Positions 8,973 through 34,948 are shown, counted from the stretch's first letter. The stretch: 64,000 nucleotides of DNA from Halomarina halobia (GCF_029338575.1 NZ_CP119993.1:1-64000); one strand, 5' to 3'. Translations and numbers: made by a program. Notes: generated from the sequence alone by a model not told the origin.

Positions 8973-10320
8973 CTACGCCCGGTCTTGGTCATGATCAGGA
9001 TGGTCACTATTCGTTTCGATTGGCAGGGTACCGTACTCGTTATTGAACGACGTTCGGATCACTTTCTTATTATACTTCCCCGTGCTTGTTCGGGGGATCT
9101 CCTCCGAGAAAACGAATCGGTCTGGAAGCCACCATCTGGGAACCTCTTTCAGGGGATGCTCGCGAAGGTCGTCTTCACCCACCTCGTTTTTCGTGACAAT
9201 GTATGCGACTGGACGTTCTTGCCACCGTTCATGGTCAACACTAATGACTGCCGCTTCTATGGCCGATTCGTGCGCTAGTAGCTCGTTCTCGCTTTGACTG
9301 ATGAGATCCACTCGCCGCCACTCTTGATGATATTGTCTACCCGGTCAACTACGGCGAGGTACCCGTGTTCGTCAATCGTGCCGATATCACCGGTCTTGAA
9401 CCATCCATCGTCGGTGAACGATTCTTCGGTCGCTTCTGGTCGAGCGAAGTATTCATCGATGACCCATGGTGCTCTCGCCTGAATCTCACCCTTAGATGTA
9501 CCGTCGTGGGGAACGGGTTCACCGTCCTCACCGCGGAGTCTGAGCTCCGCACCGGGAATCGGGATACCTGGCTTTGTTCGAAGCTCGTACTGTTCGTCCT
9601 CCGGAAGATCTTGAATCTCGGTGGTCACTAACGTATTGACGAGGTGGGGAGAGGCCTCCGTCATGCCGTATCCCTGGATGATAGGGGCCTCAAACTCTTC
9701 GTCGAATCGTCGCATTATCGCAGGCGGTGGCGAGCTTCCGCCGGTAAGAATGCGATCGAGTGTGCTGATGTCCGCCTCGGAATTTTCGCCGATATAGGCG
9801 GCCATATTAGTCCAGATCGTAGGCACACCGGCTGCCACGGTCACGTCTTGTTTCCGGATCTGTTCCTCGATACTCGCTGGTCAGTGTGCTGGTTTGGGAG
9901 GACGAACGACGAGCCGTAGAACGTCCCACTGTACGGGAGGCACCACCTGTTCACGTGGAACATGGGGACGATCGGAAGAATGATGTCCGACTCACAGATG
10001 CCGAAGGTGTCCTTTGCGCCGTAGTTCATGCTCAACAGGTACAGACCACGGTGAGAGTAGGCTGCGCCCTTCGGGAGGCCGGTCGTACCAGACGTATAGC
10101 AGATGCCACACTCGCGTTCCTCGTCGAGGTCTGGCCAGTCGTACTCCGTATCGTGTCCGCCGACGAATGCTTCATAGTCGCGAACCGGGGAGAGTGACGT
10201 TTCTGGGACCTCACCGGCGAGGATGACGTACTCTTCGACCGTCTCTAATTGGTGAGCAATCTCCACGGTCCGGACAAATTGCGTAGCGTCGCGCTCATTC
10301 AGTCTTCTCACGGTGATTTC
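8973..10320 (-). pseudogene. Acyl-CoA synthetase (AMP-forming), truncated and in three frames
   Basis: ANL-superfamily long-chain or medium-chain acyl-CoA ligase that would activate a carboxylic acid to its CoA thioester via an acyl-AMP. Piece one (about 10320-9841) carries the P-loop-like CYTSGTTGLPKGAAYSHRG and PMFHVNRW. Piece two (9844 to about 9300) carries GYGMTEASPHLVNTL, DDGWFKTGDIG and VVDRVDNIIKSGGEW. Piece three (about 9311-8973) carries the C-terminal lobe AIEAAVISV and RTSTGKYNKK with the catalytic Lys region. Frameshifts fall near 9870 and 9300, and about the first 110-130 residues are missing. It abuts a carrier remnant on the opposite strand at 10323, which suggests a rearrangement junction. 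Confidence 0.85.
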
Positions 10321-10322
10321 GG

Positions 10323-10910
10323 GTGCTTCGGGGTCCCGGTCGTTGCAGCGACGCTCGGGCGACAGCGGTGGCGATTGCGAGTGTGATCTCGGGACTCGGG
10401 ACGCTGATACAGGTATCGTTGACGGTCTATTTACTCGTGCGTATCAATGACCGCGATGCGGACATCCCTCGTGAGGTCACGAACGTCGTAACGAATCCGA
10501 TCTTGTTATCGCTCGCCGTGAGCCTCTGCTTCACGACGTTCAACCTACCTGTCCCAGACGCCGTTGACGTGAGTCTGTGACGCGTGTCGACGCTCGCACT
10601 CCCCGTAGCGCTCCTCACCGCCAGGGGGTCGCTCAAGCCCACGGGCGCCGGAACGCCACTCGGCTGGACTGGGTGGGTCGTCGGCTTGAAGGTCCTCGTG
10701 ATGCCGCTCGTCGCGTTCGCGGTGTTTTCGGATTGGACGCGGACGTACTCACTCGGAACACCGGTATCATGTTCGGGGCACCTCCGCAGTCTCGACGTAC
10801 GTCTACTCGCCGGACCCGGCGGTGATCCCACATTCGCGTCCGTGAATGTCTTCGCGACGACGATGGCCTCCACCGGCTCGCTGTTCGTCCTCCTCTACTT
10901 CATCACGTGA
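10323..10910 (+). pseudogene. AEC-type (auxin efflux carrier) transporter, C-terminal half, decayed
   Basis: Membrane carrier remnant with hydrophobic helices: AIASVISGLGTLIQVSL, VVTNPILLSLAVSL and, after an in-frame TGA at 10578-10580, STLALPVALLTARGSL, GWVVGLKVLVMPLVAF. The family's C-terminal signature (MFGAP.AV.TYVYS....GDP.FASVNVFATT.AS) is present but split across frames between about 10765 and 10840, ending FASVNVFATTMASTGSLFVLL. The N-terminal half is absent and the element starts abruptly against the acyl-CoA synthetase remnant. It is dead. The class II aldolase gene begins about 95 bp downstream. Confidence 0.75.
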
Positions 10911-11005
10911 GCGACCTACAGCGAAGCGGCACGTCCGGATCCCGTGCGGCCCACCCTCCGTTAGCGAAACCTTTGTCTCTATCCCGTGAGTCGGAGGTGC
11001 TACCC

Positions 11006-11662
11006 ATGACGACAGAGCGACCACTGCGAGCCGAACGCGAGGACATCTCGCGTATCGGACGGGAGATGCGCGAAAAGGGCCTGACCAAGGGGTCGGGTGG
11101 GAATGTCAGCGCTAGAAGCGGCGACCGGGTGGCGGTCAGCCCATCGGGAATCCCCTACGAGGATATCACCCCCGAAACCGTCCCCATCACCGACCTGAAT
11201 GGGACGCTCCGCGACGGGGAGCGAGACCCGTCGAGCGAGACTCCGATGCACGTGCTCATCTACGCCGGTCGACCCGACGTCGGAGGGATCGTTCACACGC
11301 ACTCACCGTATGCGAGTACGTTCGCGAGCCTCGGCGAACCGATACGGGCGTCTCACTACCTTATCGCCTTCGCCGGGAAGGAGGTTCCGGTTGCCGGATA
11401 CGAACCGCCTGGGACCGAGGCGCTCGGCGAACTGGCAGTCAACGCGCTGGGTCACGACCACGACGCGTGTCTCCTCCAGAACCACGGCGTCATCGCCGTC
11501 GGAGAAGACGCCGACGCTGCCCTGGAGACCGCGGAGATGGTCGAGTTCGTCGCCCAGATTCACTATCAGGCGTCGGCCATCGGGGACCCTGTCATCATGG
11601 CAGACGACGATTTAGAGTACCTCGTGGACATGTTCGGGTCCTATCGACAGCAGAGCGAGTGA
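11006..11662 (+). CDS. Class II aldolase/adducin family protein (sugar-phosphate aldolase or decarboxylase)
   Basis: Zinc-dependent class II aldolase-type enzyme of 218 residues. Family motifs are KGSGGNVSAR (phosphate-binding loop), SPSGIPYEDI, the catalytic Glu in SSETPMH, the zinc ligands in IVHTHSPYAS and the later His in LLQNHGVIAVG. Homologues cleave fuculose-, rhamnulose- or ribulose-phosphates, or decarboxylate 3-oxo-tetronate 4-phosphate (OtnC). ATG 11006 is chosen because upstream in-frame residues are not family-like. It converges with the Fe-dependent alcohol dehydrogenase gene, whose reading frame overlaps its last 50 bp. With the DUF1537 kinase at 16-17.6 kb and the HIBADH homologue at 26 kb it resembles a four-carbon sugar-acid pathway, which is inference. 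Confidence 0.88.
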   Translation: MTTERPLRAEREDISRIGREMREKGLTKGSGGNVSARSGDRVAVSPSGIPYEDITPETVPITDLNGTLRDGERDPSSETPMHVLIYAGRPDVGGIVHTHSPYASTFASLGEPIRASHYLIAFAGKEVPVAGYEPPGTEALGELAVNALGHDHDACLLQNHGVIAVGEDADAALETAEMVEFVAQIHYQASAIGDPVIMADDDLEYLVDMFGSYRQQSE

Positions 11663-12937
11663 GGGCCGGTGAGTCAGCGTATGTCGAGCACGAGAGCGTT
11701 CGACAGAGCCGGTCAGAGCGACCGCTCGATCATGTCTTCGACGGCCGACAGGGAGGGCTCTCGGATTGTTCGACGTCAAGCGCTCGAGCTGTATGGTTCG
11801 TTCGGCGAACGACCGGACGTCGTCGGCTGTGGCGCCGAAAGCCGAGAGGCCGTCCGGAAGTCCCAGCTCTGACCGCAGTTGCTCGACCGCGTCCGCCGCC
11901 TCCTTGCTTCCCGTCCCCGAACCGTTCTCGGCGTCGGCGAGCAGCGTCGCTATTCTGGCGTGTCGGTCCGGGCTCGCACCGGCGTTGTACCGCATCGACG
12001 CTGGCAACAATACCGCCACGGTCGCGCCGTGGGGACTGTGTAACCGGCCGCCAATCGCCATCGCCATCGCGTGATTGACTGTGACGCCCGCGTTCGTGTA
12101 CGCGAGTCCGGCGAGGAAGCTCCCGAGGAGCATCCCGGATCGAGCCTCGAGGTCCTCGCCGTTCCCGACGGCCCGTCTGATGTTCCCGGAAACGAGTTTA
12201 ATCGCCTGCTCGGCCAGCGAATCCGTCAACGGGGTGCGCCCGCCGTAATCGGGTCGACCCACGGAGTCGTCTGCGCGTGGCTTCTGGTCGTACCGTCGGA
12301 CGGTGTGCGCCTCGATCGCCTGTGCGAGCGCGTCCATGCCCGACGAGGCCGTCTGTTCGGGCGGGAGCGTCACGGAAAGCGTCGGGTCGAGCACGGCGAG
12401 GTCGGGATACTGGTAACGACTCGAAATCCCGACCTTCGTCTCTCGGTCCGGAAGGGAGATGACCGTAACCGGCGACGTCTCGGCGCCGGTGCCGGCCGTC
12501 GTCGGTAGACAGACGACGGGGCGACCAGATCGAGGAACGGGCTTTCCCTCGCCCGTCGGCGGTGCCACGAACGCGAGCGGGTCCTCGTCGACCTCGAGGA
12601 GCGCGCCGGTCGTCTTGGCGACGTCCATCGCGCTTCCGCCCCCCACGCCGACGACGACGTCCGGCGAGTCTGCGCGTGCACGCTCGAGTGCGTCCCGGTA
12701 GACGTCGATGTCGGCTTCCGGCTCGACGTCGCCGTACACGCCGTATTCGATTCCATCCGGGAGTCGGTCAGTCAAATACGAGACGATGCCGGCGTCGACC
12801 ACGCCCGCGTCCGAGACGAACAGCACGCTCGATGCGTCGAACGCCGACAGTTCGTCGCCGAGTTCGTTCGCTGCACCCACGCTGAACGATACCCGGTCGG
12901 CTGCATCGAACGTCCAGACTGTCTCCGGTTCGAACAT
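11612..12937 (-). CDS. Iron-containing alcohol dehydrogenase with an aberrant C-terminus
   Basis: NAD(P)-dependent group III (Fe) alcohol dehydrogenase, 441 codons. The N-terminal nucleotide domain shows VVVGVGGGSAMDVAKTTG and LPTTAGTGAETSPV. The metal domain shows SSGMDALAQAIEAHT, NHAMAMAIGGRLHSPHGATV and further His/Asp ligands. After TSNNPRAL the reading frame becomes PVGRRRHDRAV..., about 43 residues without family resemblance. One base change of frame near 11755 gives SAVEDMIERSL and a stop at 11713-11715, the usual end for this family. The natural gene is therefore probably 11713-12937 with a frameshift, and the overlap with the convergent aldolase is an artefact of that shift. Possible role: reducing an aldehyde from the adjacent aldolase. 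Confidence 0.82.
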   Translation of the reverse strand: MFEPETVWTFDAADRVSFSVGAANELGDELSAFDASSVLFVSDAGVVDAGIVSYLTDRLPDGIEYGVYGDVEPEADIDVYRDALERARADSPDVVVGVGGGSAMDVAKTTGALLEVDEDPLAFVAPPTGEGKPVPRSGRPVVCLPTTAGTGAETSPVTVISLPDRETKVGISSRYQYPDLAVLDPTLSVTLPPEQTASSGMDALAQAIEAHTVRRYDQKPRADDSVGRPDYGGRTPLTDSLAEQAIKLVSGNIRRAVGNGEDLEARSGMLLGSFLAGLAYTNAGVTVNHAMAMAIGGRLHSPHGATVAVLLPASMRYNAGASPDRHARIATLLADAENGSGTGSKEAADAVEQLRSELGLPDGLSAFGATADDVRSFAERTIQLERLTSNNPRALPVGRRRHDRAVALTGSVERSRARHTLTHRPSLALLSIGPEHVHEVL

Positions 12938-13013: not shown

Positions 13014-14090
13014 CTACGGGTCGAGGATGTCGGCGTTCGGAGGGAGGGGGAGCCCTCGCTGTTTCCGCGCAGCCATCACACGTTCGTACTCCTCGATCTG
13101 TCCCGGTCGGTCCGCAACATCCAGGTTCGCGATGTCGAAGTCCCCCTCGATACCGCCTCGCGCTCCCCACGCCCCGATCCAGAGCGTCTCCGTGCCGACG
13201 TTTCCGATCCCGTGTGGGTTCCCGGTCGGGAAGAACGCGCAGTCGAACCGACGCAATCTCGCATCCCTGTACTCCGTGATCAAACGCGCTTTCCCCGCCA
13301 TGACCCAGTATATCTCCTCGTGTGGCCCCTCGTTCTCGAAGTGCGTGTGGGTGCTCGCGTACATCCCGGGATCCAGTTTCATCACCGTGCTGTCCGAGAA
13401 CCACTCCAGTTCTGGAAGCTCGGCGATCCACGCGAGTCGGTCGGCGTTGCATCCCACCTCCGGCGCTTTGGGACATAGTTTGGCCGCCGTGTTAGCGAAC
13501 GACGTAACGACGGGTTCCGGTCGGTCCTCGTCTGGGTCCGCATCGTATTCACCATCGTACCCGGGTGATGTCGCGAGGTCGCGGTCGGATCGCGTCGCCA
13601 TGATCCGGTCGAATTCGGCGTTCCCCTCCGGTCTCGCAGCGGGTTCGAGCGTGGACTCGTCTGTGATCTCGTCGCCGCCGACAGACGACCAGGCACCGAT
13701 CCAGAGCGGCTCCGTACCGGTATACCCGATCTGATAGGCTGTATCGGGAGGGACCGAAACCAGGTGGAACCGTTCGATCGTCGCGTCCCAGTATTCTGTC
13801 CGGAGCACACCACGTCCAGAGAAGACTCGCAACGATCTCTCGAGCGCGCCTTCCACGTCCGGCTGATGTGACTGAAAGTCGGTGTATGCACCGGGATCGA
13901 GCCGGACGAGTTCCCCGCTGTCGAACCACTTCGAGGCCGGGAAGTCGTACTCCCACGTGGCGTGGCTGAAATTACAGCCCGCCGTCGACTCGTGGCGCGT
14001 ACGTGGAATGCACTCGTCGAATCGCACGACGCTCGCCTTCGGTCGTTCCTCGACCGGTCGAAACGGGTCTGACTCTCGTTCGACATCCAT
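13014..14090 (-). CDS. Bicupin protein (paralogue of 21119-22201)
   Basis: Soluble protein of 358 residues with two beta-barrel cupin domains. In domain 2 (about residues 215-320) the metal-binding pattern is complete: THTHFENEGPHEEIYWVMAG (His-X-His and Glu) and a later His in FPTGNPHGIGN. In domain 1 (about 45-145) only DFQSHQPDVEG remains, so it probably lacks metal. Both domains end with a matching G.VGTE.LWIGAW-type strand. It starts 5 bp downstream of the MDR dehydrogenase stop on the same strand, so the two are probably co-transcribed. Cupins of this kind act as isomerases, dioxygenases or binding proteins, and the reaction is unknown. A close paralogue lies 8 kb away. Confidence 0.75.
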   Translation of the reverse strand: MDVERESDPFRPVEERPKASVVRFDECIPRTRHESTAGCNFSHATWEYDFPASKWFDSGELVRLDPGAYTDFQSHQPDVEGALERSLRVFSGRGVLRTEYWDATIERFHLVSVPPDTAYQIGYTGTEPLWIGAWSSVGGDEITDESTLEPAARPEGNAEFDRIMATRSDRDLATSPGYDGEYDADPDEDRPEPVVTSFANTAAKLCPKAPEVGCNADRLAWIAELPELEWFSDSTVMKLDPGMYASTHTHFENEGPHEEIYWVMAGKARLITEYRDARLRRFDCAFFPTGNPHGIGNVGTETLWIGAWGARGGIEGDFDIANLDVADRPGQIEEYERVMAARKQRGLPLPPNADILDP

Positions 14091-14095
14091 CGTGC

Positions 14096-15165
14096 TCAGA
14101 TCTCCCCCGGAACGAGCACTGCGTGAACGATGTCGGGATCGAATTGCTCGCCCGGTAATTGCCGGTGGATCGCCGTCTCCGCCTCGGCGATCGCAAAGGT
14201 GTGGGTGTTAATCCGCGCGACATCGTCGGCGTTCCGTTCGAGGACGTTCATCGCCTTTTCGACGTCGCCCGCCTGTCCACGCCCCCGAGTAGCGTGATCT
14301 CGTCCCCGACGATATTGTCGAGTGGAATGCTCGCATCGGATCCGAGGAGTCCAACCTGCACGAGACGCCCGCGCGGTCTCACCACGTCGATGGCTAGGTG
14401 CACCGCGGCTTCTGCCGGAGCAGTCACCACGACGACGTCGAACCCGGATCCGCCCGCAATGTCGATCGCTCGCTCCGCGACATCGTCCTCGTCGGTGTAG
14501 AGCGTGTGTGTTGCGCCGACGGCCTCCCCGACTTCGAGGTTTTTCTCGTCCGCGGACAGCCCCATGACGACCAGCGGGTCGGCGCCTGCCTCCTTCGCGA
14601 CGATCGTGGACGCCAACCCCTGCGCGCCGGGACCGACGATCGCGACGCTGTCACCGGGGGACACCTTCCCCTTTCGACTAATCCAGCGAACGCCGTTCCC
14701 GATCACGCTACTGAGACAGGCCGCCTTCGGCGAGATGTCGTCGCTGACGGCGTGGACTCGGGACTTCGGATGCAGGTACATGTACTCGCCGTAGCCGCCC
14801 CAGAGGCTCGGTTTGACATGTGTCGGGAGCGTGATCCCGTAGAGGCGACCCTCGGAACACATGTGGTAGTGGCCCTGGAGACAATCCCCGCAGTCATTAC
14901 AGGGGAGGTACGGCTCGGGGGACACGCGATCGCCGACCCCGACACCCCATCGGTCCAGGGTTTCCGCCGCCCCGTCGACGATAGTGCCTGCGACCTCGTG
15001 TCCGAGTACCACGGGGAGGACGCCCATATTCGACGTTCCCTTATACAGGCTCAGGTCGGTCCCACAGACCGACGCCGCTTCCACTTCGAGAATCGCCCCT
15101 TCGTCAGCGACGTCGGGCACGGGGAACGCTACCTGCTCGAGACGACCGGGTTCGGATAGTACCAT
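14096..15165 (-). pseudogene. Zinc-dependent MDR alcohol dehydrogenase, one frameshift
   Basis: Medium-chain dehydrogenase/reductase. The catalytic zinc site is ASVCGTDLSLYKG plus LGHEVAGTIV. The structural zinc cysteines are in CNDCGDCLQGHYHMC, and the Rossmann motif is VAIVGPGAQGLAS. The frame ends prematurely at 14248 (GGVDRRATSKRR). The next frame continues AGDVEKAMNVLERNADDVARI and QLPGEQFDPDIVHAVLVPGEI to a stop at 14096-14098, the expected C-terminus, so one base is gained or lost near 14270. ATG 15165 (MVLSEPGRLE) is preferred to the GTG five codons upstream. It is followed after 5 bp by the bicupin gene and is divergent from the SDR gene. Substrate unknown, probably a polyol or sugar. 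Confidence 0.85.
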
Positions 15166-15348
15166 CGAGGTTGACTCCACGCTAACTCACTCCTCGGTGT
15201 ATGTTATGTCGTACCATAAATGGAGGGGTCAAACGGAGCGTTCGCACCATCGCCGTCCTCGGGTGTCGGATCAGGTTCGCACCGTCGGCTTACGAACGTT
15301 CGAGGCGTAATCGTTAACAGGGTGCACACTAAGGGCACAGGTGGTACA

Positions 15349-16146
15349 ATGACCGACTGGTTAGCTAGCGACGTAGCGGTAGTCACCGGTGGTGCAAGTG
15401 GGAATGGACGAGAGATCAGCTGTACACTCGCCGAGTACGGCGCCGACGTGGTCGTCGCCGACCTCCGGATGGAGCCCCGGGAGGGCGGTCAGCCGACGAC
15501 CGAGCTCATCGAATCCGAGTACGGTCAGCGCGCAGAGTTCGTCGAGTGCGACGTCACGGATTCTGAGGACCTCCAACGCACCTTCGACGCGGCCGAGACA
15601 CTCGGCGGCGTCTCGATCCTCGTCAACAACGCCGGCATCACCGAGAACCGCGACTTCCTAGACGAAACCGAGGCTGACTTCGACCGCATCATCGACATCA
15701 ACGTCAAAGCACCGTTCTTCGCGTCGCAGCTCGCTGCCGAACGCATGATCGACGCGGACCACGACGGACGCATCGTCAACATCGCGAGCATCTCGGGTAT
15801 TGCCGGACGCGGGAACGGTGTCGTCTACAGCGCCTCCAAGGGAGCATTGCGACTGATGACGTACGCGCTGTCGGCCTCGCTCGGCCCGCGGGGCATCCGT
15901 GTGAACGATGTCTCCCCCGGCGTCATCGAGACCAGCATGACTCGCAACGACCTCGAAATGTTCGACTCGGGCGCAGCCGAGGAGTACGCGACCACCACAC
16001 CGATTGGACGCGTCGGCACGCCGAACGACGTTGCGAACGCTGTTCTCTACCTCGTCAGTCCCCTCGCGGGATTTGTCAACGGTGAAACCCTCGTCGTCGA
16101 CGGTGGCGCGACGAACTCCTGGGGTGGCATCGCCGGCGAGGACTAA
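15349..16146 (+). CDS. Short-chain dehydrogenase/reductase (SDR, classical)
   Basis: NAD(P)-dependent oxidoreductase of 265 residues. Motifs are TGGASGNGREI (cofactor loop), CDVTDSED, LVNNAGITENRDF, the catalytic Ser in IVNIASISGIAG, YSASKGAL (Tyr/Lys) and the C-terminal NGETLVVDGGATNSWGG. An acidic residue after the second strand (VVADLRME) favours NAD over NADP. ATG 15349 is chosen because the SDR fold begins there; codons upstream to 15220 are open but unlike the family. The gene is divergent from the MDR gene. The promoter side contains CGTTAACAGGGTGCACAC (about 15312), and this region is duplicated at about 19.45 kb. Substrate unknown, with sugar or polyol oxidation likely. Confidence 0.88.
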   Translation: MTDWLASDVAVVTGGASGNGREISCTLAEYGADVVVADLRMEPREGGQPTTELIESEYGQRAEFVECDVTDSEDLQRTFDAAETLGGVSILVNNAGITENRDFLDETEADFDRIIDINVKAPFFASQLAAERMIDADHDGRIVNIASISGIAGRGNGVVYSASKGALRLMTYALSASLGPRGIRVNDVSPGVIETSMTRNDLEMFDSGAAEEYATTTPIGRVGTPNDVANAVLYLVSPLAGFVNGETLVVDGGATNSWGGIAGED

Positions 16147-16196: not shown

Positions 16197-17608
16197 TCAC
16201 TCTCCAGCGACGCCGCCCTCGCGCACGACACCGAAGTAATCCGCGGCTTCGTGCCTCGTCCCGATCTGCCCACCCTTGAGCGCGATCTCGAGGCCGTCGA
16301 ACGCGGGGTCGTCGGCGTGAGCCCGGCAGAGAGGGGCACCCGGGCCAACGGGTGCGATCGCTTCGAGCGCGCGGATGCCGAGTCGCGGAATCGCGTGACT
16401 GCTCGTGTCGCCGCCGGCGACGCACGCCCGACGCAACCTCGTCCGCTCCAGGACCTCGCGGAGGATCTCGCCCTGCTCTCGACCGAGGCGAGTTTCGAGC
16501 GCTCCGCCGATACCGAGCGACCGGAACCGCCGTCTGGTGGCCTTGAGCGCGGGATCGTCCGAACCGCGAGCCGAGTAGAGGACGACGCTATCGCCCGCAA
16601 CGAGCGCGTCGGTCGCCACCTCGACTGCGGATTCGCGGGCCGTGGCGGCCGCGTTGGGATCGACGAGCGCTTCGGTGTCGAGCCGGATGTCCCGGAACCC
16701 GTTCTCGCTCGCCCAATCGATCTGTGCGGCGGTCATCCCCGACGCGCTCCCTGCCACGACGAGCAGTTCGTCGACGGACTCGCGCTTCCGGTATAGTCGC
16801 TCCTCGCGGTCGATTCGGCCATGTTCAGCCCACGTGTGAACGAGCGCGTGATGTTCCAGACCGGACGAACCGACCACGAACAGTGGATCCGAGATCGCGA
16901 TCGCACGGTCCCAGAGGAGTCGCCCGATCGTCTCCAAATGATCGGTGTGGAGCGCGTCCAAGACGACGATCTCGGAAGCGGCGCTCGCGTCCGAGAGCGC
17001 CGAGTCCGCTGCCACAGCAGGTTCAGGTCCGTCACGTGGACGTGACCGACGTCGCGCTCGGTCTGCTCGCCGAGGTGCCGGCGGAGGTCACCCTCCCGCA
17101 TCGGCGTGACCGGATGGTCGCGCATCGTCGGATGACGGTCGATCCGGTACGTCTCGCCGTCCTGAACGGCGAAGAGGTTCGAGAAGGCGACGTAGCGACC
17201 GTGCGGTACCTCGGTCCCCTGCGAGACCGGGACGACCGGGGAGTCGAACATCTCTTGACCGATGTCGATTGCGCGACCGATACTCCCGACATCGGGCGCG
17301 GAATCGAACGTCGAACAAACCTTGTAGTGGACGATCGGCACGTCGAAGGCGGAAAGCGCCTCGAACGCCGGTCGTAGTTCCTCGGTCATCTCACCCGGCG
17401 TCATCGACCTGCTCGCACCGGCGATTCCGAGCGCGTCCAGGTCGTCGAACCGGTCGAGGTCGGCTCGCGTCGGTGGATCGAGGAAGAGCACCGCACGAAC
17501 GCCGTTGGCGGCGAGCCCCTCCAGTGCGTCCGTCGACCCCGTGAAGTCATCCCCGTAGAACGCCAAGAGGAGATCGTCGTCGGTCGGCCGGTTCGTTTCT
17601 TCGGTCAT
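16197..17608 (-). pseudogene. DUF1537 four-carbon acid sugar kinase family, one frameshift
   Basis: ATP-dependent kinase of the OtnK/DUF1537 family, which phosphorylates oxidised sugar acids such as 3-oxo-tetronates or 3-oxo-isoapionate. The N-terminal domain is clear: FYGDDFTGSTDALEGLA, VPIVHYKVCSTFDSAPDVGS and VTDLNLLW. At about 17012 the frame changes and the rest continues SALSDASAASEIVVLDALH, FVVGSSGLEHHALV and the C-terminal ATP-site motif RRACVAGGDTSSHAIPRLG, ending EIALKGGQIG... at 16197. With one base corrected it is about 470 residues, slightly longer than usual. It begins 19 bp after the RuBisCO-like gene, on the same strand, so the two form an operon. If the frameshift is real the kinase is inactive. 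Confidence 0.85.
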
Positions 17609-17627
17609 AGCTTCGGCTCGTGTTGTC

Positions 17628-18911
17628 TCATCGTTTCCCGTAGAACGCCAGTGCAGTTCCGAGTTCCTCGTGGTCCTCCGCGTACTCCTCCAGCGGGATT
17701 CCTCTTACTGCGGCCTCCCAGCCTTGTTTGAGGTGGGCGACGCCCGCTCCCGGACCATCCGGATGACCGAGTATCCCGCCCCCCGCGAGGTACAGCAGGT
17801 CGCAGTTCCCGAGCGCCTCGTAAGTGTCCGGCGCCTGGTCGGCCCACTGGCCGGAGGAGAACACCGGCATCGCGACATCGTCCGTAGCGGCGATCGGGCG
17901 CTGGACGGCCTTCGCCGATCGGATCACGGACTCGTCGGACTCAGTGAACTTGTTCCGGAGCCCGCTCACGTGGAGGTGGTCGATTCCGGCGAGCCGCCAA
18001 AACTTCTGCCACACTTCGTAATTGAACCCTAACTGCGGGCAGCGCGACAGGGCACCCCAGCCGTTTCGATGCCCGTGGATCGGCAGGTCGGCTTCGGCCC
18101 GGAGCGTCTGCACCGCGGCGAGGCCGACGCTGTGGAGGCTGACCATCACGCAGTTTCCGCCGGCATCCTTCACGGCGTCGTGGCGTTCCAGCATCTCGTC
18201 GACGGTTCCCGTGATGTTGCAGGCGTACATGACCCGGCTGCCGGTTGCCGCCTCGTGCCGGTCGATGACTTCCATCACTGCCACGACGCGCTCGTGGACC
18301 GGCGAGTACGGCGGATCAGCGATCAGCTCGTCGTCCTTGACGAAATCCACGCCGGCCTCGACGACCGCTTCTACGACGTCTGCGGTTTCCGCCGGAGTGA
18401 GGCCGACGTTCGGTTTGACGATCGTCCCGATCAATGGGCGGTCGTGGACACCGACGAGGTCGCGCGTCCCCTCGACGCTGAACTGGGGTCCAGGGTTCGC
18501 CGCCGCAAACGCTTCGGGGAGCGCGATATCGACGAGCCTGATGCCCGAGAGCGGCCATAACTCGTAGAGGTTCCCGGCGACCGTCGTCAGCAGGTTCGGG
18601 AGCGACGTCCCGGTGTTCTCGATCGGGTACGATATCTCGACGTCCGCACGCGTGTACGGCGAGTCGGCACCCTCGGAGGGTGACGACGCTCCAGGGAGAG
18701 ACGGTTCCGCGACCGTCTCCTGCTCCGTAATCGATTCGACGCGGGCCGCGTGTCGCTCGCGGAGGGCGTCCGTCTCGCCGGGAACGTCGACGAACGTCCC
18801 CGAGGACTGCTCGCCCGCCATCAGCTCGGCGACCTTCGTGACATCCTCGGCGGTCTCGACGCGGTACGTCGCCGTCGTTCGAGCGGTATCGTGCGTCGTT
18901 CGGTCCGTCAT
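17628..18911 (-). CDS. RuBisCO-like protein (type IV), OiaX-like candidate
   Basis: 427 residues with the RuBisCO large-subunit fold. IGTIVKPNVGLTP corresponds to the first catalytic Lys loop, and VDFVKDDELIADPPYSP keeps the metal-site Lys-Asp-Asp-Glu. HGHRNGWGALSR replaces the canonical His motif, VFSSGQWADQAP replaces the SGG loop, and LAGGGILGHPDGPGAG keeps the phosphate loop. The altered loops mark it as a RuBisCO-like protein, not a carboxylase. The metal triad is intact, so it should be an enzyme acting on a phosphorylated substrate. The tightly coupled DUF1537 kinase downstream matches bacterial D-apionate pathways in which OiaK phosphorylates 3-oxo-isoapionate and OiaX decarboxylates it. 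Alternatives are the transcarboxylase/hydrolase variant or a new activity. The family is certain and the role is inferred. Confidence 0.85.
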   Translation of the reverse strand: MTDRTTHDTARTTATYRVETAEDVTKVAELMAGEQSSGTFVDVPGETDALRERHAARVESITEQETVAEPSLPGASSPSEGADSPYTRADVEISYPIENTGTSLPNLLTTVAGNLYELWPLSGIRLVDIALPEAFAAANPGPQFSVEGTRDLVGVHDRPLIGTIVKPNVGLTPAETADVVEAVVEAGVDFVKDDELIADPPYSPVHERVVAVMEVIDRHEAATGSRVMYACNITGTVDEMLERHDAVKDAGGNCVMVSLHSVGLAAVQTLRAEADLPIHGHRNGWGALSRCPQLGFNYEVWQKFWRLAGIDHLHVSGLRNKFTESDESVIRSAKAVQRPIAATDDVAMPVFSSGQWADQAPDTYEALGNCDLLYLAGGGILGHPDGPGAGVAHLKQGWEAAVRGIPLEEYAEDHEELGTALAFYGKR

Positions 18912-18950: not shown

Positions 18951-19226
18951 TTATTCCGCGTTTTGGACCGTCTCTACGAAGTCCCGTGGCGTGTCACCCG
19001 GTTCGACGCACAGGCTCGCGGCGCGTTCGTTGGCGTGACTCGGGACGCCGTCCCCCCACGCTGACAATGCGTCGCTGACGTGCGCGTCGTTGAAGACGAC
19101 CCCTGTCACTCCCTGCCGGGCGGTCGGCCACCCGGAGGAGATACCGCCGTGGCTGCCCGCGGTCACCGCGGTACCGGTCGCATCGGGTTTCGTGCTACTG
19201 TCGACGGTACGTCTGTCTCCCGGCAT
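18951..19226 (-). pseudogene. Truncated conserved protein (SHGG...GVTGVVFNDA type)
   Basis: 91 codons, 39 bp upstream of the RuBisCO-like gene on the same strand. Visible pieces are AVTAGSHGG, ARQGVTGVVFNDA and HANERAASLCVEPGD. I recall a family of about 110-130 residues with SHGG, GVVFNDAG and a conserved central segment, but cannot name it. Here the segment between FNDA and the C-terminal SHANERAA part looks shortened by about 30 residues, and the N-terminus is not family-like, so the gene is probably damaged. Its placement first in the RuBisCO-like/kinase operon suggests a role in that pathway. Function unknown. Confidence 0.4.
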
Positions 19227-20015: not shown

Positions 20016-20136
20016 TTTAGAATATCCAATCGTGACGGGTCGAGGCGCGGACAGAGAGGACGGGAGGACGCCGTTCCGAAGAGACGCCATCAGCCAGGGT
20101 ACAGTTATACGGACCTGGGGCCTGTACTCGAAGGTG

Positions 20137-21018
20137 ATGACGTCATGGAACCACGAGTATGCCCGGGTAAACGGCGTCGAACTGCACTACGTTCGAGAGG
20201 GCTCGGGCTTCCCGCTATTTCTCGTTCACGGGTGGCCCGAGTACTGGCGGACGTGGCGGAAGAACGTCCCCGTCCTCGCCGAATCGTTCGAGGTGATCGT
20301 CCCGGACCTTCGGGGGTTCGGGGACTCGGAGAAGCCCGACGTTCCCGCCGTGAAGGGATACGGCGTCGACGCACACGTCGCTGACCTAACAGCACTCGCA
20401 GCCGAACTGGACATCGACGAATTCGGGTACGTAAGCCACGACCTCGGCGCGTACGTCGGGCAGACGATCGCGCGCGAACGCCCAGGGTCACTCCGCGGCT
20501 TGTTTTTCTTCGATACCCCGTATCCGGGGATCGGCAAACGGTGGCGCGACCCCGATCACATCGGCGAGATCTGGTACCAGTCGTTCAACCAGCAGCCCTG
20601 GGCCGCGGACCTCGTCGGTTCCAGTCGAGTGGCCTGTGAGACGTACATCGGCCACTTTCTCGATCACTGGTCGGGCGACCCATCGGAGTTCGATGCTGAC
20701 GACCGGGAATCCTGGATCGACACGTACCTCAAACCTGGAAACCTGCAGGGCGGGTTCAACTGGTACGTAGCCGCGGACGAGGATCGAAAGCGACTGATGC
20801 GCGACGGCGCACCCTCGATGGACCCGATCGAGGTCCCGACGCGCATCCTCTGGGGGGAACTCGACCCGATCGTTGACTCCGAGTGGAGCGACCGACTGGA
20901 CGAGTACTTCGCGGACTATCGCCTCGATACCGTCCCGGACGCCGGGCACTTCGTCCACCACGAGAAACCCGACCTGGCCAACGACGAGATCGAGTCGTTC
21001 TTCGCGGGGCTCGACTGA
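20137..21018 (+). CDS. Alpha/beta hydrolase (epoxide hydrolase/haloacetate dehalogenase-like)
   Basis: Soluble hydrolase of 293 residues. The oxyanion-hole motif is FLVHGWPEYWRTWRKN. The nucleophile elbow is SHDLGAYVG, with Asp as nucleophile, as in epoxide hydrolases and haloacetate dehalogenases. A cap region (DHWSGDP, NWYVAADEDR) follows, then the acid in LWGELDPIVD and the catalytic His in DAGHFVHHEKP. An Asp nucleophile makes a simple esterase less likely. ATG 20137 (MTSWNHEYARVNG) is chosen because the fold begins directly after it. The gene converges with the second bicupin. It could open a lactone or epoxide, or dehalogenate, in the surrounding pathway. Confidence 0.85.
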   Translation: MTSWNHEYARVNGVELHYVREGSGFPLFLVHGWPEYWRTWRKNVPVLAESFEVIVPDLRGFGDSEKPDVPAVKGYGVDAHVADLTALAAELDIDEFGYVSHDLGAYVGQTIARERPGSLRGLFFFDTPYPGIGKRWRDPDHIGEIWYQSFNQQPWAADLVGSSRVACETYIGHFLDHWSGDPSEFDADDRESWIDTYLKPGNLQGGFNWYVAADEDRKRLMRDGAPSMDPIEVPTRILWGELDPIVDSEWSDRLDEYFADYRLDTVPDAGHFVHHEKPDLANDEIESFFAGLD

Positions 21019-26172: not shown

Positions 26173-27014
26173 ATGACTGTCGGATTCGTTGGCCTCGGTC
26201 GAATGGGGCTTCCGATGGCGATAAACCTCGTTGAGGACGGAGTCGACGTCGTCGGGACCGACCTGGATGAGGAACGGAAACGAGCGCAGAAGATGCAGGC
26301 GGCAGAACCGCCGACACGGTCGCCGAAGCCGTCGTTGACGCCGACGTCGCGATTACGGTGCTACGCACACCCGAACAGGTCCTTGCCGTGGCGGAAGACC
26401 TGCTCTCCGCAATGGACGAGGGCGACCTCTACATCGACATGAGTTCGATCGATCCACTAACGAGCGAAACAGTTGCCGAACTCGCTGCGGAGGAGGGGAT
26501 CCGGACGGTCGACGCGCCCGTCAGCGGCGGCGTGTCCGGCGCTGAAGAGGGAACCCTCTCGGTCATCGTCGGCGGTGCAAACGACGACGTCGCGGAGGCT
26601 GAGGAACTGTTCGAGTCGATGGCGGCGACTGTGTTCCACGTCGGATCGATCGGCGCTGGCCAAACTGTCAAACTCGCGAATCAACTTCTCGTCGGCGCAC
26701 AGACTGTGCTCGTCGCGGAAGCGTTCCGCTTCGGTGACGCGAACGGAATCGACCGCGAAACGCTCCGGGACGTCCTCGTCGAGAGCGCGGGCTCGTCGTG
26801 GGTCCTCGAGACGTGGGGCGAGCGGTACATCGAGGAGGAGCACGAACCGGGGTTCGAGATCAACCTGCAGCACAAGGACCTCCGGCTCATGACCGAAGCC
26901 GCGGTCGAACTGGACGTCCCGGTGCCCCTCGGTGCCGCAGCGATGCAGACGTACGTCGACGCGAAGCGCAACGGACTCGGCGACCGTGATGTCACGGCCG
27001 TCTTCCAGTTGTGA
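26173..27014 (+). pseudogene. 3-hydroxyisobutyrate/tartronate-semialdehyde-type dehydrogenase, one frameshift
   Basis: Beta-hydroxyacid dehydrogenase (HIBADH family; members include GarR, L-threonate dehydrogenase and HIBADH). Frame one has the Rossmann start TVGFVGLGRMGLPMAINL and VVGTDLDEER. At about 26290 the frame shifts and continues TADTVAEAVVDADVAI, VLRTPEQVLAVAEDLL, the substrate-binding VDAPVSGGVSGAEEGTLSV, the catalytic Lys in GAGQTVKLANQLL and LQHKDLRLMTEAA, ending at 27014. One base corrected gives about 280 residues, normal for the family. It is followed by a VOC protein and a 3-hydroxyacyl-CoA dehydrogenase-like gene on the same strand. HIBADH-family enzymes act in tetronate and glycerate routes, which fits the DUF1537 kinase and class II aldolase in this region. 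Confidence 0.85.
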
Positions 27015-30323: not shown

Positions 30324-31628
30324 TCAGGCGAACCCGAACATCCGGGGCAGGAACAGCACCACGTCGGGGACGAAGATAACGAGCAACAGCACCGCGAAGA
30401 GGGGGATGTAGAACGGTCCGACTCCCCGAATGATGTCGAGTAGATCCAGATTCGTTACCCGTTCGAGGACGAACAGGACGACGCCGAACGGCGGCGTGAT
30501 GAGGCCGATCATGAGCGTGATCATCATCACGATCCCGAACACGAGCGGGTCGATGCCGAGCCCTGGGAAGGTGGGTGCGAGGATCGGGACAGTGATGAGG
30601 ATGATCGCGAGGGTCTCCATGAATGTCCCGAAGACGAGGAGCACCACCACGAGCAGTAACGTGGCGACGATCGCGGTGTCGGCGACCGTGAGTAGCGTCT
30701 CGGTCAGGTACCGGGGAACGCCCGATATCGTGACGAGGAACCCATAGAGGTTCGCGAGGCCGATGATCAGTATGAGCGCGGCCGTGTCAATAAACGTCTT
30801 CTTGATGACAGCGTACAGCGTTTCCCCGTCGAGTGAGCGGTAGTAGAACGCGCCGAGGAAGGTCGCGTACATGACGGCCACGACGGCGGACTCGGTTGGG
30901 GTGAAGTACCCGGAGATGATGCCTCCGATGATTATCACGGGGGCGACGAAGGCCGGAGCAGCCCGCACCAAGGTGCCGAGGAGCTTCCGTGCGTTGTACG
31001 CGTTGCGCGATGCGAACCCCTCCCTGATGGCGATGTACGTCACCATCCCCATCAGGGACACGCCCATCAGAATGCCCGGGATGACACCGGCGATGAACAG
31101 CGCACCGATCGACACCTGCGCCATCACGCCGTAGACGATCATCGGAATACTCGGCGGGATGATGGGCCCAATGGTCGATGACGCGGCGGTGATTCCGGCC
31201 GAGAACCCGGGTTCGTATCCCCGATCGGTCATCGCTTCGTACTCGATCGTCCCGAGACCAGCGGCGTCGGCGACGGCCGCGCCACTCATCCCCGAGAAGA
31301 TCATGCTGACCACGACGTTGACGTGACCGAGACCGCCGGGGAGCGGACCGACGGCTTCTTCCGCGAAGTCGAAGATGTCGGACGTCATCCCGATGACGTT
31401 CATGATGCGCCCCGCGAACAGGAAGAACGGGATCGCGAGGAGTGTGAACGAGTTCATCCCCGTGTACATGCGTTGTGCGATCACCTGGGCATTGAAGTCC
31501 GGGCCGACTGGGAGTACCATCACCACGATGGCGCTCAAGCCGATCGCGTACGCGACGGGGACACCGAGCACGTACAGTAACAGGAGCACGAGGATGAACG
31601 CCAACGTCAGGGTGAGCATCTCGGCCAC
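30324..31628 (-). CDS. dctM: TRAP transporter large permease DctM
   Basis: 434 residues, about twelve hydrophobic spans, the sodium-coupled transport subunit of a tripartite ATP-independent periplasmic-type transporter. Family motifs include MNSFTLLAIPFFLFAGRIM, GLGHVNVVVSMIFSGMSGAAVADAAGLG, IPPSIPMIVYG, SGYFTPTESAVVAVMYA and the C-terminal LITPPFGVVLFVLERV. It forms an operon with DctQ (3-bp gap upstream) and DctP. Substrates of the family are C4-dicarboxylates, sugar acids, keto acids and ectoines; which one applies here is not evident. Confidence 0.95.
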   Translation of the reverse strand: MAEMLTLTLAFILVLLLLYVLGVPVAYAIGLSAIVVMVLPVGPDFNAQVIAQRMYTGMNSFTLLAIPFFLFAGRIMNVIGMTSDIFDFAEEAVGPLPGGLGHVNVVVSMIFSGMSGAAVADAAGLGTIEYEAMTDRGYEPGFSAGITAASSTIGPIIPPSIPMIVYGVMAQVSIGALFIAGVIPGILMGVSLMGMVTYIAIREGFASRNAYNARKLLGTLVRAAPAFVAPVIIIGGIISGYFTPTESAVVAVMYATFLGAFYYRSLDGETLYAVIKKTFIDTAALILIIGLANLYGFLVTISGVPRYLTETLLTVADTAIVATLLLVVVLLVFGTFMETLAIILITVPILAPTFPGLGIDPLVFGIVMMITLMIGLITPPFGVVLFVLERVTNLDLLDIIRGVGPFYIPLFAVLLLVIFVPDVVLFLPRMFGFA

Positions 31629-31631
31629 GGT

Positions 31632-32210
31632 CTAGTCACCCCCCTCGCCGTCCGGCATCGCGAGATTCCCGTTACCACCCTTCGGTTCTGACACTCCCGC
31701 CGTGATCGGGGCTTCATCGGATAACCACACGAGTATCGTTTCCTCGATGGCGAACAGGATGACGATCCCGAACATGACGCCGAGGACGATCTGAGCGTGG
31801 CCCACGGTCAACCAGTCTATCGTCGCGAGCGTCACGCCGAGGGTCCGGTTCGTGGCTCGGTCGACGGCATGGATGACCAGTATGGAGAACACGACGATCA
31901 TGATATTCGAGAACGTGATCAGGACCTTCTGGGTGCGTGCTGAGAGGAGCCGGAACAGGGGACGGATCGATATGTTGTCGTCGTTCCGCATGGCGTACGG
32001 TGCACCGACGAAGACCATGATGACGAGCAGGTACCGCGCCAGTTCTTCCGTCCAGACCGTACTGAAGCCGAGGTCGACGAACCGCATGAGGATCTGGAAT
32101 GCGGCTATGAGGTTGATGATGACGAACAGCGCGATCCCGAGTAATACGGTTCCCTGCTCTACGTAGTCGAAAGCACGGTCCACTTTGGAAACCACCTTGG
32201 ATACGTTCAT
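31632..32210 (-). CDS. dctQ: TRAP transporter small permease DctQ
   Basis: 192 residues with four predicted membrane spans and the DctQ signature region (FQILMRFVDLGFSTVWTEELARYLLVIMVFVGAPYAMR, in segments). It works with DctM to couple the binding protein to sodium-driven uptake. The C-terminal tail is long and hydrophilic (Gly/Asn/Asp-rich, halophilic). It is located between DctP (32-bp gap) and DctM (3-bp gap) on the minus strand, in the usual P-Q-M order. Confidence 0.92.
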   Translation of the reverse strand: MNVSKVVSKVDRAFDYVEQGTVLLGIALFVIINLIAAFQILMRFVDLGFSTVWTEELARYLLVIMVFVGAPYAMRNDDNISIRPLFRLLSARTQKVLITFSNIMIVVFSILVIHAVDRATNRTLGVTLATIDWLTVGHAQIVLGVMFGIVILFAIEETILVWLSDEAPITAGVSEPKGGNGNLAMPDGEGGD

Positions 32211-32242
32211 AATGTGGCGACTATCTGGGGTGCGTTAGAACG

Positions 32243-33322
32243 TCAGGCGAGGCCCATCACTTCCTCGAAGGACGGGTCCCAGCGATTCTCGAAGAACCGC
32301 TCGAGTTGAGGTCGCCCCGCTTCGACGAACGCCTCCTGGTCGACATCTTCCGCCCGCGTGATGGTCGTGCCGTGCTCTTCCTCGGCTTTCTTGAGCAGGA
32401 CGTCGACCTCCGACCGCGTCTCCTCGTTCGCCCATTCGATCGCCTCGTCCAGGCTCTCCTGGATCATCTGCTGGTCGTCGCTGGAGAGGTCCTGCCAGAG
32501 GGCCTCGTTGATAAGCCAGCTGAGCCCCTGAAGCAGGTGTTGGGTCTCCGAGAAGTGCGTCTGGACCTCGTAGAGACTCGTATCCATGAACTGCTGGATT
32601 GGACCTTCGGACGCCTCGACGACGCCGGTCTCGAGTGCGGAGTAGAGTTCGTCGAACGCGACGGGCGTCGCGTTCACGCCGATTTCCTGCCAGGTCTTGA
32701 CCCACGTCTCGAACTGTGGCAGTCGCATGTCGAGGCCTTGGACGTCGTCCGGGTGCTTCACGACCTTGTTCGAGGTCGTGCCGCGGAGCCCCCGGAAGGA
32801 TTCGCTGAGTTGGCGCTGATTACCTTGGTTGATGATCTTCTCGTTGAATCCGCCGTCGGCGTACGTGTACTCCTCTTGCATCGCCACGAAGTGATCCCAG
32901 TTCTGGGCGACGAAGGGCGCTTCGAGGAACCCGTACTCTGGGCCGTACGCGGCGGCTACCGACGAGATACTCGTGCCGTGCATGTCGACCGTGCCGGATG
33001 CGACTGCTTCGATCTGGTCTTCCTCGCCACCGACGGATGCAGCAAGTACGTCGAACGTGATCCGACCGTCGGTCGCCGAATCGACGTTGTCGGCGAATCG
33101 ACTGGCGAGCTTCGTCTGCGTGTGCTCCGGGTTGAACGGCGTCGCGATGGACAGGCTCCGGCTCTCTCCGCCACCACCGCCCCCGCCCCCACCGCTGCCA
33201 CCGCCGCCGTTCCCGTCGTTCCCATCGTTTCCACCGAGGCACCCTGCGAGGCCGGTGAGTACCATAGCGCCCCCGGCTCCGAGTGCTCGCAAGTAGCTAC
33301 GACGACTGGTCCGTGATACCAT
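32243..33322 (-). CDS. dctP: TRAP transporter substrate-binding lipoprotein DctP
   Basis: 359 residues. The N-terminus SRRSYLRALGAGGAMVLTG ends in the lipobox LAGC, so the protein is probably exported by Tat and lipid-anchored outside the membrane. A Gly/Asn/Asp linker (about residues 30-52) precedes the binding domain with SIATPFNPEHTQTKLASRF, VDMHGTSISS and the central DMRLPQFETWVKTWQEIGV, corresponding to the conserved Arg-containing ligand-binding region of DctP proteins. ATG 33322 is chosen because the signal sequence starts there; 53 upstream in-frame codons are not signal-like. It is first in the DctPQM operon and its promoter region faces a SAF-domain oxidoreductase gene. Confidence 0.93.
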   Translation of the reverse strand: MVSRTSRRSYLRALGAGGAMVLTGLAGCLGGNDGNDGNGGGGSGGGGGGGGGESRSLSIATPFNPEHTQTKLASRFADNVDSATDGRITFDVLAASVGGEEDQIEAVASGTVDMHGTSISSVAAAYGPEYGFLEAPFVAQNWDHFVAMQEEYTYADGGFNEKIINQGNQRQLSESFRGLRGTTSNKVVKHPDDVQGLDMRLPQFETWVKTWQEIGVNATPVAFDELYSALETGVVEASEGPIQQFMDTSLYEVQTHFSETQHLLQGLSWLINEALWQDLSSDDQQMIQESLDEAIEWANEETRSEVDVLLKKAEEEHGTTITRAEDVDQEAFVEAGRPQLERFFENRWDPSFEEVMGLA

Positions 33323-33466: not shown

Positions 33467-34822
33467 ATGATCAATACTCATCGCAAACTGGGGGAACTAG
33501 ACGAACCGATCGACGTCGGAATAATCGGTGCCGGCCTGTTCGGGACGAAACTGATGGACCAGATCGCGCGAGTCCAAGGCATACGAACGGTCGCTGTCGC
33601 CGACCTGAACCTCGACGCCGCCGAGCAGTCCCTCGAGGAAGCCGGTGTCGCCGACCGCAGGACGCGAGCGTCAGGGACCGACAGCATCGATCGAGCCATC
33701 GCCGACGACAAGATCGCCGTCACGGACGACGCGATCGCGCTCACGGCATCGGGCGTCGACGTCGTCGTCGAGTCGACCGGCGTCCCGGACGCCGGGGCTC
33801 GCCACGCGTACAACGCGATACTCGAGGGGAAACACGTCGTCATGGTGACCGTCGAGACCGACACCGTCGTCGGCCCGCTCCTCGCAGACATGGCAGCGAG
33901 CGCCGGCGTGACGTACTCGCTCGCGTACGGTGATCAGCCCGCACTCATCGTCGAGCTGTACGACTGGGCTCGAAGCATCGGCATGGATGTCGTCGCCGTC
34001 GGCAAAGGGAATCCGTATCGCGAGGAGTATCGGCTGGGGACGCCCGACGATGTCTTCGAGCGCTACGGGTTCAACGACTCGTTCGTCGAGGACCACGGCC
34101 TGAACCCGCGGATGTACAACTCGTTCCTCGACGGCACGAAGGTCGCCGTCGAGATGTGCGCCGTCGCCAACGCCCTCGACCTCGAACCGGACGTCTCCGG
34201 CATGCACCTCCCGACGTGCGAGATCCCGGAGATACCGAACGAACTCCGTCCGGCCGAGGACGGCGGACTCCTCGACGGGACCGGCGTCGTCGACACCGTC
34301 AGCACGCTCTATCCCGACGGCACGAGTGTCGACCACAGCATCAGTTTCGGCGTCTTCGTCGTTACCTCGACCCCGAACCGCGCCGTCGCCGAGTACATCG
34401 AGCAGAACAGCTGCGACGGACTGTACGTCTCCGACGACGGCGAGTACCAGGTGTTCTATCGTCCCTACCACCTCCCGGGCGTCGAGACGACCATCAGCAT
34501 CGCCAGCGCGGCACTCGAGAACGAACCGACGGGAGTCGCTCGCACGCACGCGGCAGAGGTCGTCGCCGCCGCGAAACGCGATCTCTCGCCGGGCGACGAA
34601 CTCGACGGCGGTGGCGGCTACACCGTCTACGGAACGCTCGAAACGGCGGAACGCGCGGCGAGCGAGGGATACGTTCCCTTCGAGTTGCTCGACGGCGCGG
34701 AGGTCGTCGCGGACGTCTCGACGGACGACGTCATCACGTACGACGACGTGAGCCTCGACGAGTCGTCGTTCATCTACACGCTCAGAGCGATCCAGGACGA
34801 ACGGATGGCCGGCGGCCGATGA
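33467..34822 (+). CDS. NAD-binding homoserine-dehydrogenase-like oxidoreductase with C-terminal SAF domain
   Basis: 451 residues. The N-terminal Rossmann domain is IDVGIIGAGLFGTKLMDQI, and AVADLNLDAA gives the acidic NAD-binding residue. GVDVVVESTGVPDAGARHA and the EGKHVVMVTVETD segment follow, as in COG4091-type predicted homoserine dehydrogenases. The middle part (AYGDQPALIVELYDWAR, VAVGKGNPY) is conserved in that family. The last about 100 residues, with RDLSPGDELDGGGGYTVYG, form the SAF domain, a fold shared with sialate synthases and sugar-acid dehydratases. These proteins are poorly characterised and often sit in sugar-alcohol or sugar-acid clusters. Divergence from dctP links it to the imported substrate. 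Confidence 0.85.
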   Translation: MINTHRKLGELDEPIDVGIIGAGLFGTKLMDQIARVQGIRTVAVADLNLDAAEQSLEEAGVADRRTRASGTDSIDRAIADDKIAVTDDAIALTASGVDVVVESTGVPDAGARHAYNAILEGKHVVMVTVETDTVVGPLLADMAASAGVTYSLAYGDQPALIVELYDWARSIGMDVVAVGKGNPYREEYRLGTPDDVFERYGFNDSFVEDHGLNPRMYNSFLDGTKVAVEMCAVANALDLEPDVSGMHLPTCEIPEIPNELRPAEDGGLLDGTGVVDTVSTLYPDGTSVDHSISFGVFVVTSTPNRAVAEYIEQNSCDGLYVSDDGEYQVFYRPYHLPGVETTISIASAALENEPTGVARTHAAEVVAAAKRDLSPGDELDGGGGYTVYGTLETAERAASEGYVPFELLDGAEVVADVSTDDVITYDDVSLDESSFIYTLRAIQDERMAGGR

Positions 34823-34948
34823 ACAGACAGACGGCCGGTGAGTACCGCGTACGGACGACCTCCCTTCCGAAGTGAGGGATTCGGGGCCGTCTCGGTCGCT
34901 CGCTTCGCGAACGACGGTCGGACGAGCGTTCGGAACAACCGTTCGATA

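Follow-up and report, generated by a model that had tools for sequence, protein, structure and literature searches.

Bacteria that degrade D-apionate use a pair formed by the DUF1537 kinase OiaK and the RuBisCO-like protein (RLP) OiaX (Carter et al. 2018, cited in PMC6302742 and PMC10176493). Two RLP reactions are known on 3-oxo-isoapionate-4-phosphate: decarboxylation and transcarboxylation/hydrolysis (PMC6302742). A bacterial RLP has also been described for D-hamamelose (Kim et al. 2018, as cited in PMC8914248); it is reported to act last in the route, giving 3-phosphoglycerate and glycolate (PMC8914248), and to do so as an oxygenase (PMC10176493). The RuBisCO active site comprises Tyr20, Glu60, Thr65 and Asn123 from one subunit and Lys175, Lys177, Lys201, Asp203, Glu204, His294, Arg295, His327, Lys334 and Leu335 from the other (PMC5786004).

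The window analysed here is a stretch of 64,000 nucleotides. As the sequence-only reading had stated, it contains an RLP gene with the KDDE metal site, followed after 19 bp by a DUF1537 kinase gene. The features of the window are as follows (L007 is the second copy of this stretch, described below).

10907..11662, plus strand: class II aldolase; best NCBIfam match a haloarchaeal ribulose-1-phosphate aldolase, below cut-off
11711..12937, minus strand: iron-containing alcohol dehydrogenase; intact in L007, with a frameshift near 11750 in the window
13014..14090, minus strand: double-cupin protein; pairs with the zinc-dependent dehydrogenase, also on the syntenic Natronosalvus rutilus plasmid
14095..15180, minus strand: zinc-dependent dehydrogenase; reading frame broken near 14281 in the window, intact in L007
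15349..16146, plus strand: SDR-family dehydrogenase (family 5); recurs near haloarchaeal RLP-kinase pairs
16197..17608, minus strand: OiaK-like DUF1537 acid-sugar kinase; broken by a frameshift at 17024 in the window, 470 aa in the intact copy
17609..17627, minus strand: intergenic gap of 19 bp between RLP and kinase
17628..18911, minus strand: RLP of 427 aa in the OiaX superclade; most RuBisCO catalytic residues kept
18951..19226, minus strand: internally deleted remnant of fam21; inner part (about residues 52-221) gone between repeats
20032..21018, plus strand: alpha/beta hydrolase; syntenic in N. rutilus
30324..33322, minus strand: TRAP transporter (large permease, small permease, solute-binding protein)

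The RLP reading frame is uninterrupted and contains the Pfam N- and C-terminal RuBisCO_large domains. In other haloarchaea, homologous RLP and kinase genes are 22 bp apart or overlap. In the window, a T missing from CTAG at 17024 leaves the kinase as two frames that overlap, 17608..16733 and 17015..16197; SBD_N and NBD_C domains (PF07005, PF17042) were found across the two pieces. The first ~40 kb of contig C2 (1,162,939 bp) recurs at its far end, 99.92% identical over 39 kb, and an intact kinase frame of 470 aa is present in this second copy (G000:C2; L007:16287-17699). Nearly all differences between the copies lie at CTAG sites or in homopolymers. Since the second copy is intact and the differences cluster at CTAG, an assembly or base-calling error is the best explanation for the frameshift; a pseudogene is ruled out on the same grounds.

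Window positions 1-40047 overlap G000:C2:1122891-1162939, that is, ~40 kb at the contig ends belonging to an untrimmed circular replicon of ~1.12 Mb. The CTAG differences most likely represent a systematic long-read error which splits the kinase at 17024, an acyl-CoA ligase at 9878 and a 3-hydroxyisobutyrate-type dehydrogenase at 26287, and which probably inflates the contamination estimate. Homopolymer errors split the zinc-dependent dehydrogenase at 14281 and the iron-containing one at 11750. An Rfam scan of the window detected no RNA family.

The neighbours of the pair (SDR, zinc-dependent dehydrogenase/double-cupin, iron-containing dehydrogenase, aldolase and TRAP transporter) are largely common to N. 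rutilus. Comparison with this species gave a dN/dS of ~0.16 for the RLP (0.135/0.852) and ~0.18 for the kinase (0.154/0.857), with differences mostly at third positions; both genes are under purifying selection. Full-length fam21 is a two-repeat protein of ~267 aa with a weak DUF1805 match; in several haloarchaea its gene lies directly upstream of that for the RLP. An oxidoreductase with DRL catalytic and SAF domains (33468-34823, plus strand), which has a homologue in haloarchaeal locus L124, adjoins the TRAP transporter.

Profile searches indicate that the kinase is OiaK-like. The intact protein matched OiaK best among NCBIfam models (NF042436, 448.5 bits; next, 3-oxo-tetronate kinase, 181.5), below the cut-off of 700 that no haloarchaeal kinase reaches, and it keeps 70 of the 71 residues invariant among bacterial partners. 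The best NCBIfam match of the RLP was OiaX (NF042437), with 505.8 bits against 265.7 for the next model. This is also below the curated cut-off of 700, which PGAP-named OiaX proteins exceed (Shinella, 779.8 bits; Marivivens, 770.8). In a maximum-likelihood tree, the RLP belongs to a superclade with all OiaX-type RLPs, on a long stem and with 100/100 support; archaeal form III, MtnW and photo-type RLPs lie outside it. Within this superclade, it falls outside the subclade of PGAP-named OiaX. Thus, the kinship to OiaK and OiaX that had been proposed holds at the level of best profiles and superclade; it does not extend to the cut-offs or to the OiaX active-site signature. Only 9% of bootstrap trees showed the haloarchaeal RLPs as monophyletic, because the RLP of L124 branches apart. 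The AlphaFold model of the RLP (mean pLDDT 89.1) best matched PDB 3NWR, an RLP from Burkholderia fungorum (TM 0.91, 46% identity), which was also the best sequence match among solved structures (430.7 bits, 49% identity).

Grouping with MtnW or with true carboxylases had been named as fatal to the sequence-only reading; the tree places the RLP elsewhere. It scored 158-213 bits against MtnW models with cut-offs of 409-514, and keeps both Lys334 and Asn123, whose absence we used as the mark of MtnW-type residues. Against form III RuBisCO (TIGR03326) it reached 265.7 bits for a cut-off of 497, and form III is encoded separately in this genome (C1:894959-895783). It is therefore very improbable that the protein is a true RuBisCO, an MtnW enolase, another form IV isomerase or a non-functional relic: it has the RuBisCO fold with many of the catalytic residues, and the kinase looks broken in the window, but the tree splits the RLP from form III and MtnW with full support, the kinase is intact in the second copy and dN/dS values are low.

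A Methanonatronarchaeales RLP (L079, 10001-11101), 39-40% identical, is sister to the whole OiaX/OiaT superclade. It keeps E60, N123, H327, S379 and also W66, and no DUF1537 kinase was recognised alongside it.

Conservation of the pair in related genomes, on which the original proposal depended, was assessed in 392 haloarchaeal genomes. The RLP profile scored 460-515 bits in 11 of them and at most 196 bits in the rest (form III). An OiaK-type kinase, counted at E < 1e-60, was found in 14 genomes. Every one of the 11 RLP genomes was among them, and the two genes were adjacent in 10 of these 11. Fisher's test gave p = 5e-19 for their co-occurrence, a value which is no strict probability since the genomes are related. 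Across phyla, 42 of 49 loci had RLP and kinase side by side on the same strand; these loci came from haloarchaea, Alpha- and Betaproteobacteria, Chloroflexota, Planctomycetota and others. The kinase was not found in the four same-genus genomes searched; the distribution of the module is therefore patchy, and several copies are on plasmids. A literature search, with subscription journals mostly outside its reach, returned no report of such a pair in haloarchaea.

In bacterial loci, ApnL (NF049900) and a Gfo/Idh dehydrogenase are accompanied by a PGDH_C protein (PF16896) that we take to be ApnO. ApnO was detected in 7 of the 392 haloarchaea, all seven kinase-positive (p = 1e-11) and six also RLP-positive (p = 7e-10), these genomes again being related. 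On a plasmid of Halalkalicoccus sp. FCH27, the genes for RLP, OiaK-like kinase, ApnO and a GntP permease lie in a row. Plasmids of Haloterrigena, Haloarcula and Natrinema contain a TRAP transporter, SDR, VOC, fam21, RLP, kinase, ApnO and IclR. Because the pair is conserved and ApnO is confined to kinase-positive genomes, the archaeal D-apionate-type route that had been proposed is well supported at gene level for the haloarchaeal group. For the window's own genome it is unproven: the search that was positive in the seven genomes found no ApnO here, and four other genomes (G233, G278, G281 and G264) also have the pair without it. ApnL had no match in the 11 RLP genomes, this one included, in a search run without a positive control genome, and neither ApnO nor ApnL was found elsewhere in this genome. 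RpiB, the family of DerI in the decarboxylase branch, was absent from all 11 RLP genomes in a search that was positive in seven controls, so that no RpiB-type isomerase was found for this branch.

Related loci without an RLP were also observed. One of them, L157 (G122:C2, 8657-12596), groups an OiaK-like kinase and ApnO with a GntP permease, a DeoC/LacD aldolase and a protein resembling triosephosphate isomerase, and may represent an archaeal D-apionate variant that works without an RLP. In L158 and L159, an OiaK-like kinase occurs with a class II aldolase, which shares 60-63% identity with that of the window, and with a member of the Asp/Glu racemase family. The gene for this racemase-family protein is also found repeatedly next to RLP-kinase pairs, in Planctomycetota, Rufibacter, Sphingobium and haloarchaea.

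The active site of the RLP was then compared with that of RuBisCO. The VKDDE motif is present, K192, D194 and E195 corresponding to spinach K201, D203 and E204. Equivalents of E60, T65, N123, K175, H294, R295, H327 and K334 are kept, as are those of S379, G381, G403 and G404. Changes affect K177 (to N), L335 (to F), W66 (to F) and loop 6 (GTVVGKL to SGLRNKF), and the N-terminal Tyr20 region is missing. The earlier description of altered loops understated how widely RuBisCO residues are retained. With K177 and L335 changed and the Tyr20 region missing, it is not certain that the RLP can carry out RuBisCO chemistry in full. Whether position 177 holds N or S does not follow the presence of ApnO.

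Four of the retained positions separate this protein from OiaX. E60, N123, H327 and S379 are kept in the window RLP (as E34, N114, H314 and S352 in its own numbering) and in all haloarchaeal RLPs. Rhizobial-type OiaX, including PGAP-named ones, have D60, G123, Q327 and G or C379 in 20 of 20 sequences, a signature derived here from the PGAP-named clade. RLPs that keep E/N/H/S occur in complete bacterial D-apiose clusters of Phyllobacterium (L164), Roseibium (L150) and Shinella sumterensis (L162), and in a D-apiose cluster of Paraburkholderia sprentiae (L165) with a PGAP-named OiaK. Chloroflexota and Trueperaceae RLPs have lost E60, N123 and S379. Those of Trueperaceae (L047, L049) adjoin ApnL and have the signature V/S/H/G, apparently an independent loss of RuBisCO residues. 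The E/N/H/S state is common to form III; from the tree it looks ancestral, with the losses derived.

The absence of the OiaX decarboxylase signature points to an RLP of the transcarboxylase/hydrolase type found for D-apiose, or of the hamamelose type, rather than to OiaX itself. Transcarboxylation requires enediolate carboxylation, hydration and C-C cleavage, the later steps of RuBisCO catalysis, and decarboxylation does not; retention of these residues therefore favours a transcarboxylase/hydrolase. As the RLP keeps E60, N123, H327 and S379 like the RLPs of complete D-apiose clusters, we predict a RuBisCO-type transcarboxylation/hydrolysis of a 2-C-branched 3-oxo sugar-acid phosphate, not a simple decarboxylation. 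The link between signature and transcarboxylase is one that we infer from chemistry and gene context, not from a reference OiaT sequence. Our working definition of OiaT is an RLP that keeps the RuBisCO catalytic residues within an apionate-type gene context; the window RLP keeps the residues, and such a context occurs in other haloarchaea and in bacteria, but this genome lacks ApnO.

An RLP that only decarboxylates, as OiaX does, would take CO2 from the phosphorylated 3-oxo acid and leave a ketose phosphate, either L-erythrulose 1-phosphate or a homologue, to be split by the aldolase at 10907-11662 or by another enzyme. The clear lead of the OiaX model over all others is consistent with this. 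So is the class II aldolase ~7 kb away, whose relatives adjoin OiaK-like kinases elsewhere in haloarchaea (L141, L158 and L159), as is the G122 locus with its kinase, ApnO, aldolase and triosephosphate-isomerase-like protein. However, the RLP misses the cut-off that PGAP-named OiaX pass at 770-780 bits, lies outside their subclade, shows none of the OiaX-specific losses at E60, N123, H327 and S379, and comes without an RpiB-type isomerase. We consider simple decarboxylation unlikely, though worth keeping in view.

Transcarboxylation/hydrolysis of 3-oxo-isoapionate-4-phosphate yields 3-phosphoglycerate and glycolate. That kinase and RLP act together as a kinase-lyase module on a branched sugar acid, with the RLP as an OiaT-type transcarboxylase/hydrolase giving these two products, has in our estimate about an even chance of being correct. 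The analysis itself establishes the two genes with their intactness, family, conservation, purifying selection and retained residues; we infer the following substrate, order of steps and type of reaction. A branched sugar acid would be imported, probably through the nearby TRAP transporter, a candidate acid-sugar importer. A dehydrogenase would then oxidise it to a 2-C-(hydroxymethyl)-3-oxo acid, a step at which ApnO would make 3-oxo-isoapionate in some haloarchaea; here the adjoining SDR (15349..16146) or the zinc-dependent dehydrogenase is the candidate for oxidising the sugar acid. The DUF1537 kinase would phosphorylate the terminal hydroxyl of the 3-oxo acid. At its carbamylated-lysine/Mg site, the RLP would release CO2 to leave an enediolate, re-carboxylate this on the other carbon, hydrate the product and cleave it like RuBisCO into 3-phosphoglycerate and glycolate. 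No dedicated glycolate or 3-phosphoglycerate enzyme was demonstrated adjoining the pair.

The same products could arise from another substrate. In the hamamelose route, the RLP substrate has a HOCH2-C(OH)(COOH)-C(=O)- head, as in 3-oxo-isoapionate-4-phosphate, and forming it takes a dehydrogenase alone, not ApnO. For the window, the SDR would oxidise a C6 branched acid (hamamelonate, i.e. 2-carboxyarabinitol, or a relative) without ApnO, the kinase would add the phosphate, and the RLP, as oxygenase or hydrolase, would cleave the product to 3-phosphoglycerate and glycolate. The bacterial precedent cited above ends in these products, and this genome has an SDR beside the pair and no ApnO. SDR-RLP-kinase-transporter loci without ApnO in Bradyrhizobium, Chimaeribacter, Caballeronia and Agrobacterium have the same make-up, and this parallel leaves room for a hamamelonate-like substrate. 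Against it, the closest RLP relatives on the tree after N. rutilus sit in ApnO-bearing loci, and SDRs are too common to be specific. This substrate appears somewhat less probable still than simple decarboxylation.

We also put forward, tentatively, an evolutionary scenario that we regard as unlikely. The haloarchaeal RLP lineage would lie near the root of the OiaX/OiaT superclade and still combine RuBisCO-type enediolate carboxylation with C-C hydrolysis on an undescribed branched acid, without ApnO (hamamelonate/2-carboxyarabinitol-like, for example). Bacterial OiaX would then be later and degenerate, and the superclade may stem from halophilic archaea, the L079 RLP being its sister.

Altogether, these results extend to haloarchaea an acid-sugar module of DUF1537 kinase and RLP described in bacteria, with strong co-occurrence and in a minimal four-gene version. 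The archaeal hosts of this RuBisCO-superfamily enzyme also have form III, and its active site predicts a RuBisCO-like carboxylation/hydrolysis in which the substrate would supply its own CO2. The signature separating the RLP from OiaX offers a simple annotation rule for RLPs named only 'RuBisCO large subunit family protein', and it bears on the gain and loss of RuBisCO chemistry.

Compared with the bacterial OiaK/OiaX pair, the locus shares the adjoining kinase and RLP genes on the same strand, the best profiles, the superclade and, in several haloarchaea, an adjoining ApnO. It differs in missing both curated cut-offs, in having E60, N123, H327 and S379 instead of D/G/Q/G-C, in the lack of ApnO, ApnL and RpiB matches in this genome, and in haloarchaeal transport by TRAP or GntP systems instead of a sugar ABC system. 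Archaeal form III RuBisCO has the same fold and most of the same active-site residues, but is only ~34% identical and forms a separate clade, represented in this genome by its own gene on contig C1. PDB 3NWR, the closest solved protein by sequence and fold, has the same residue signature; the examined members of its clade showed no ApnO nearby, and the 3NWR entry gives a structure without a stated function. The D-hamamelose RLP, by its description, stands at the end of a branched-sugar route to 3-phosphoglycerate and glycolate, the products also predicted here; that route has a dehydrogenase and no hydroxymethyl migration. Finally, the Xanthobacter 3-oxo-isoapionate-4-phosphate transcarboxylase/hydrolase, an RLP reported alongside OiaX that we take to be OiaT, has the chemistry that we predict for the window RLP, and RLPs with the residue signature of the window sit in bacterial D-apiose clusters (L150, L162, L164 and L165).
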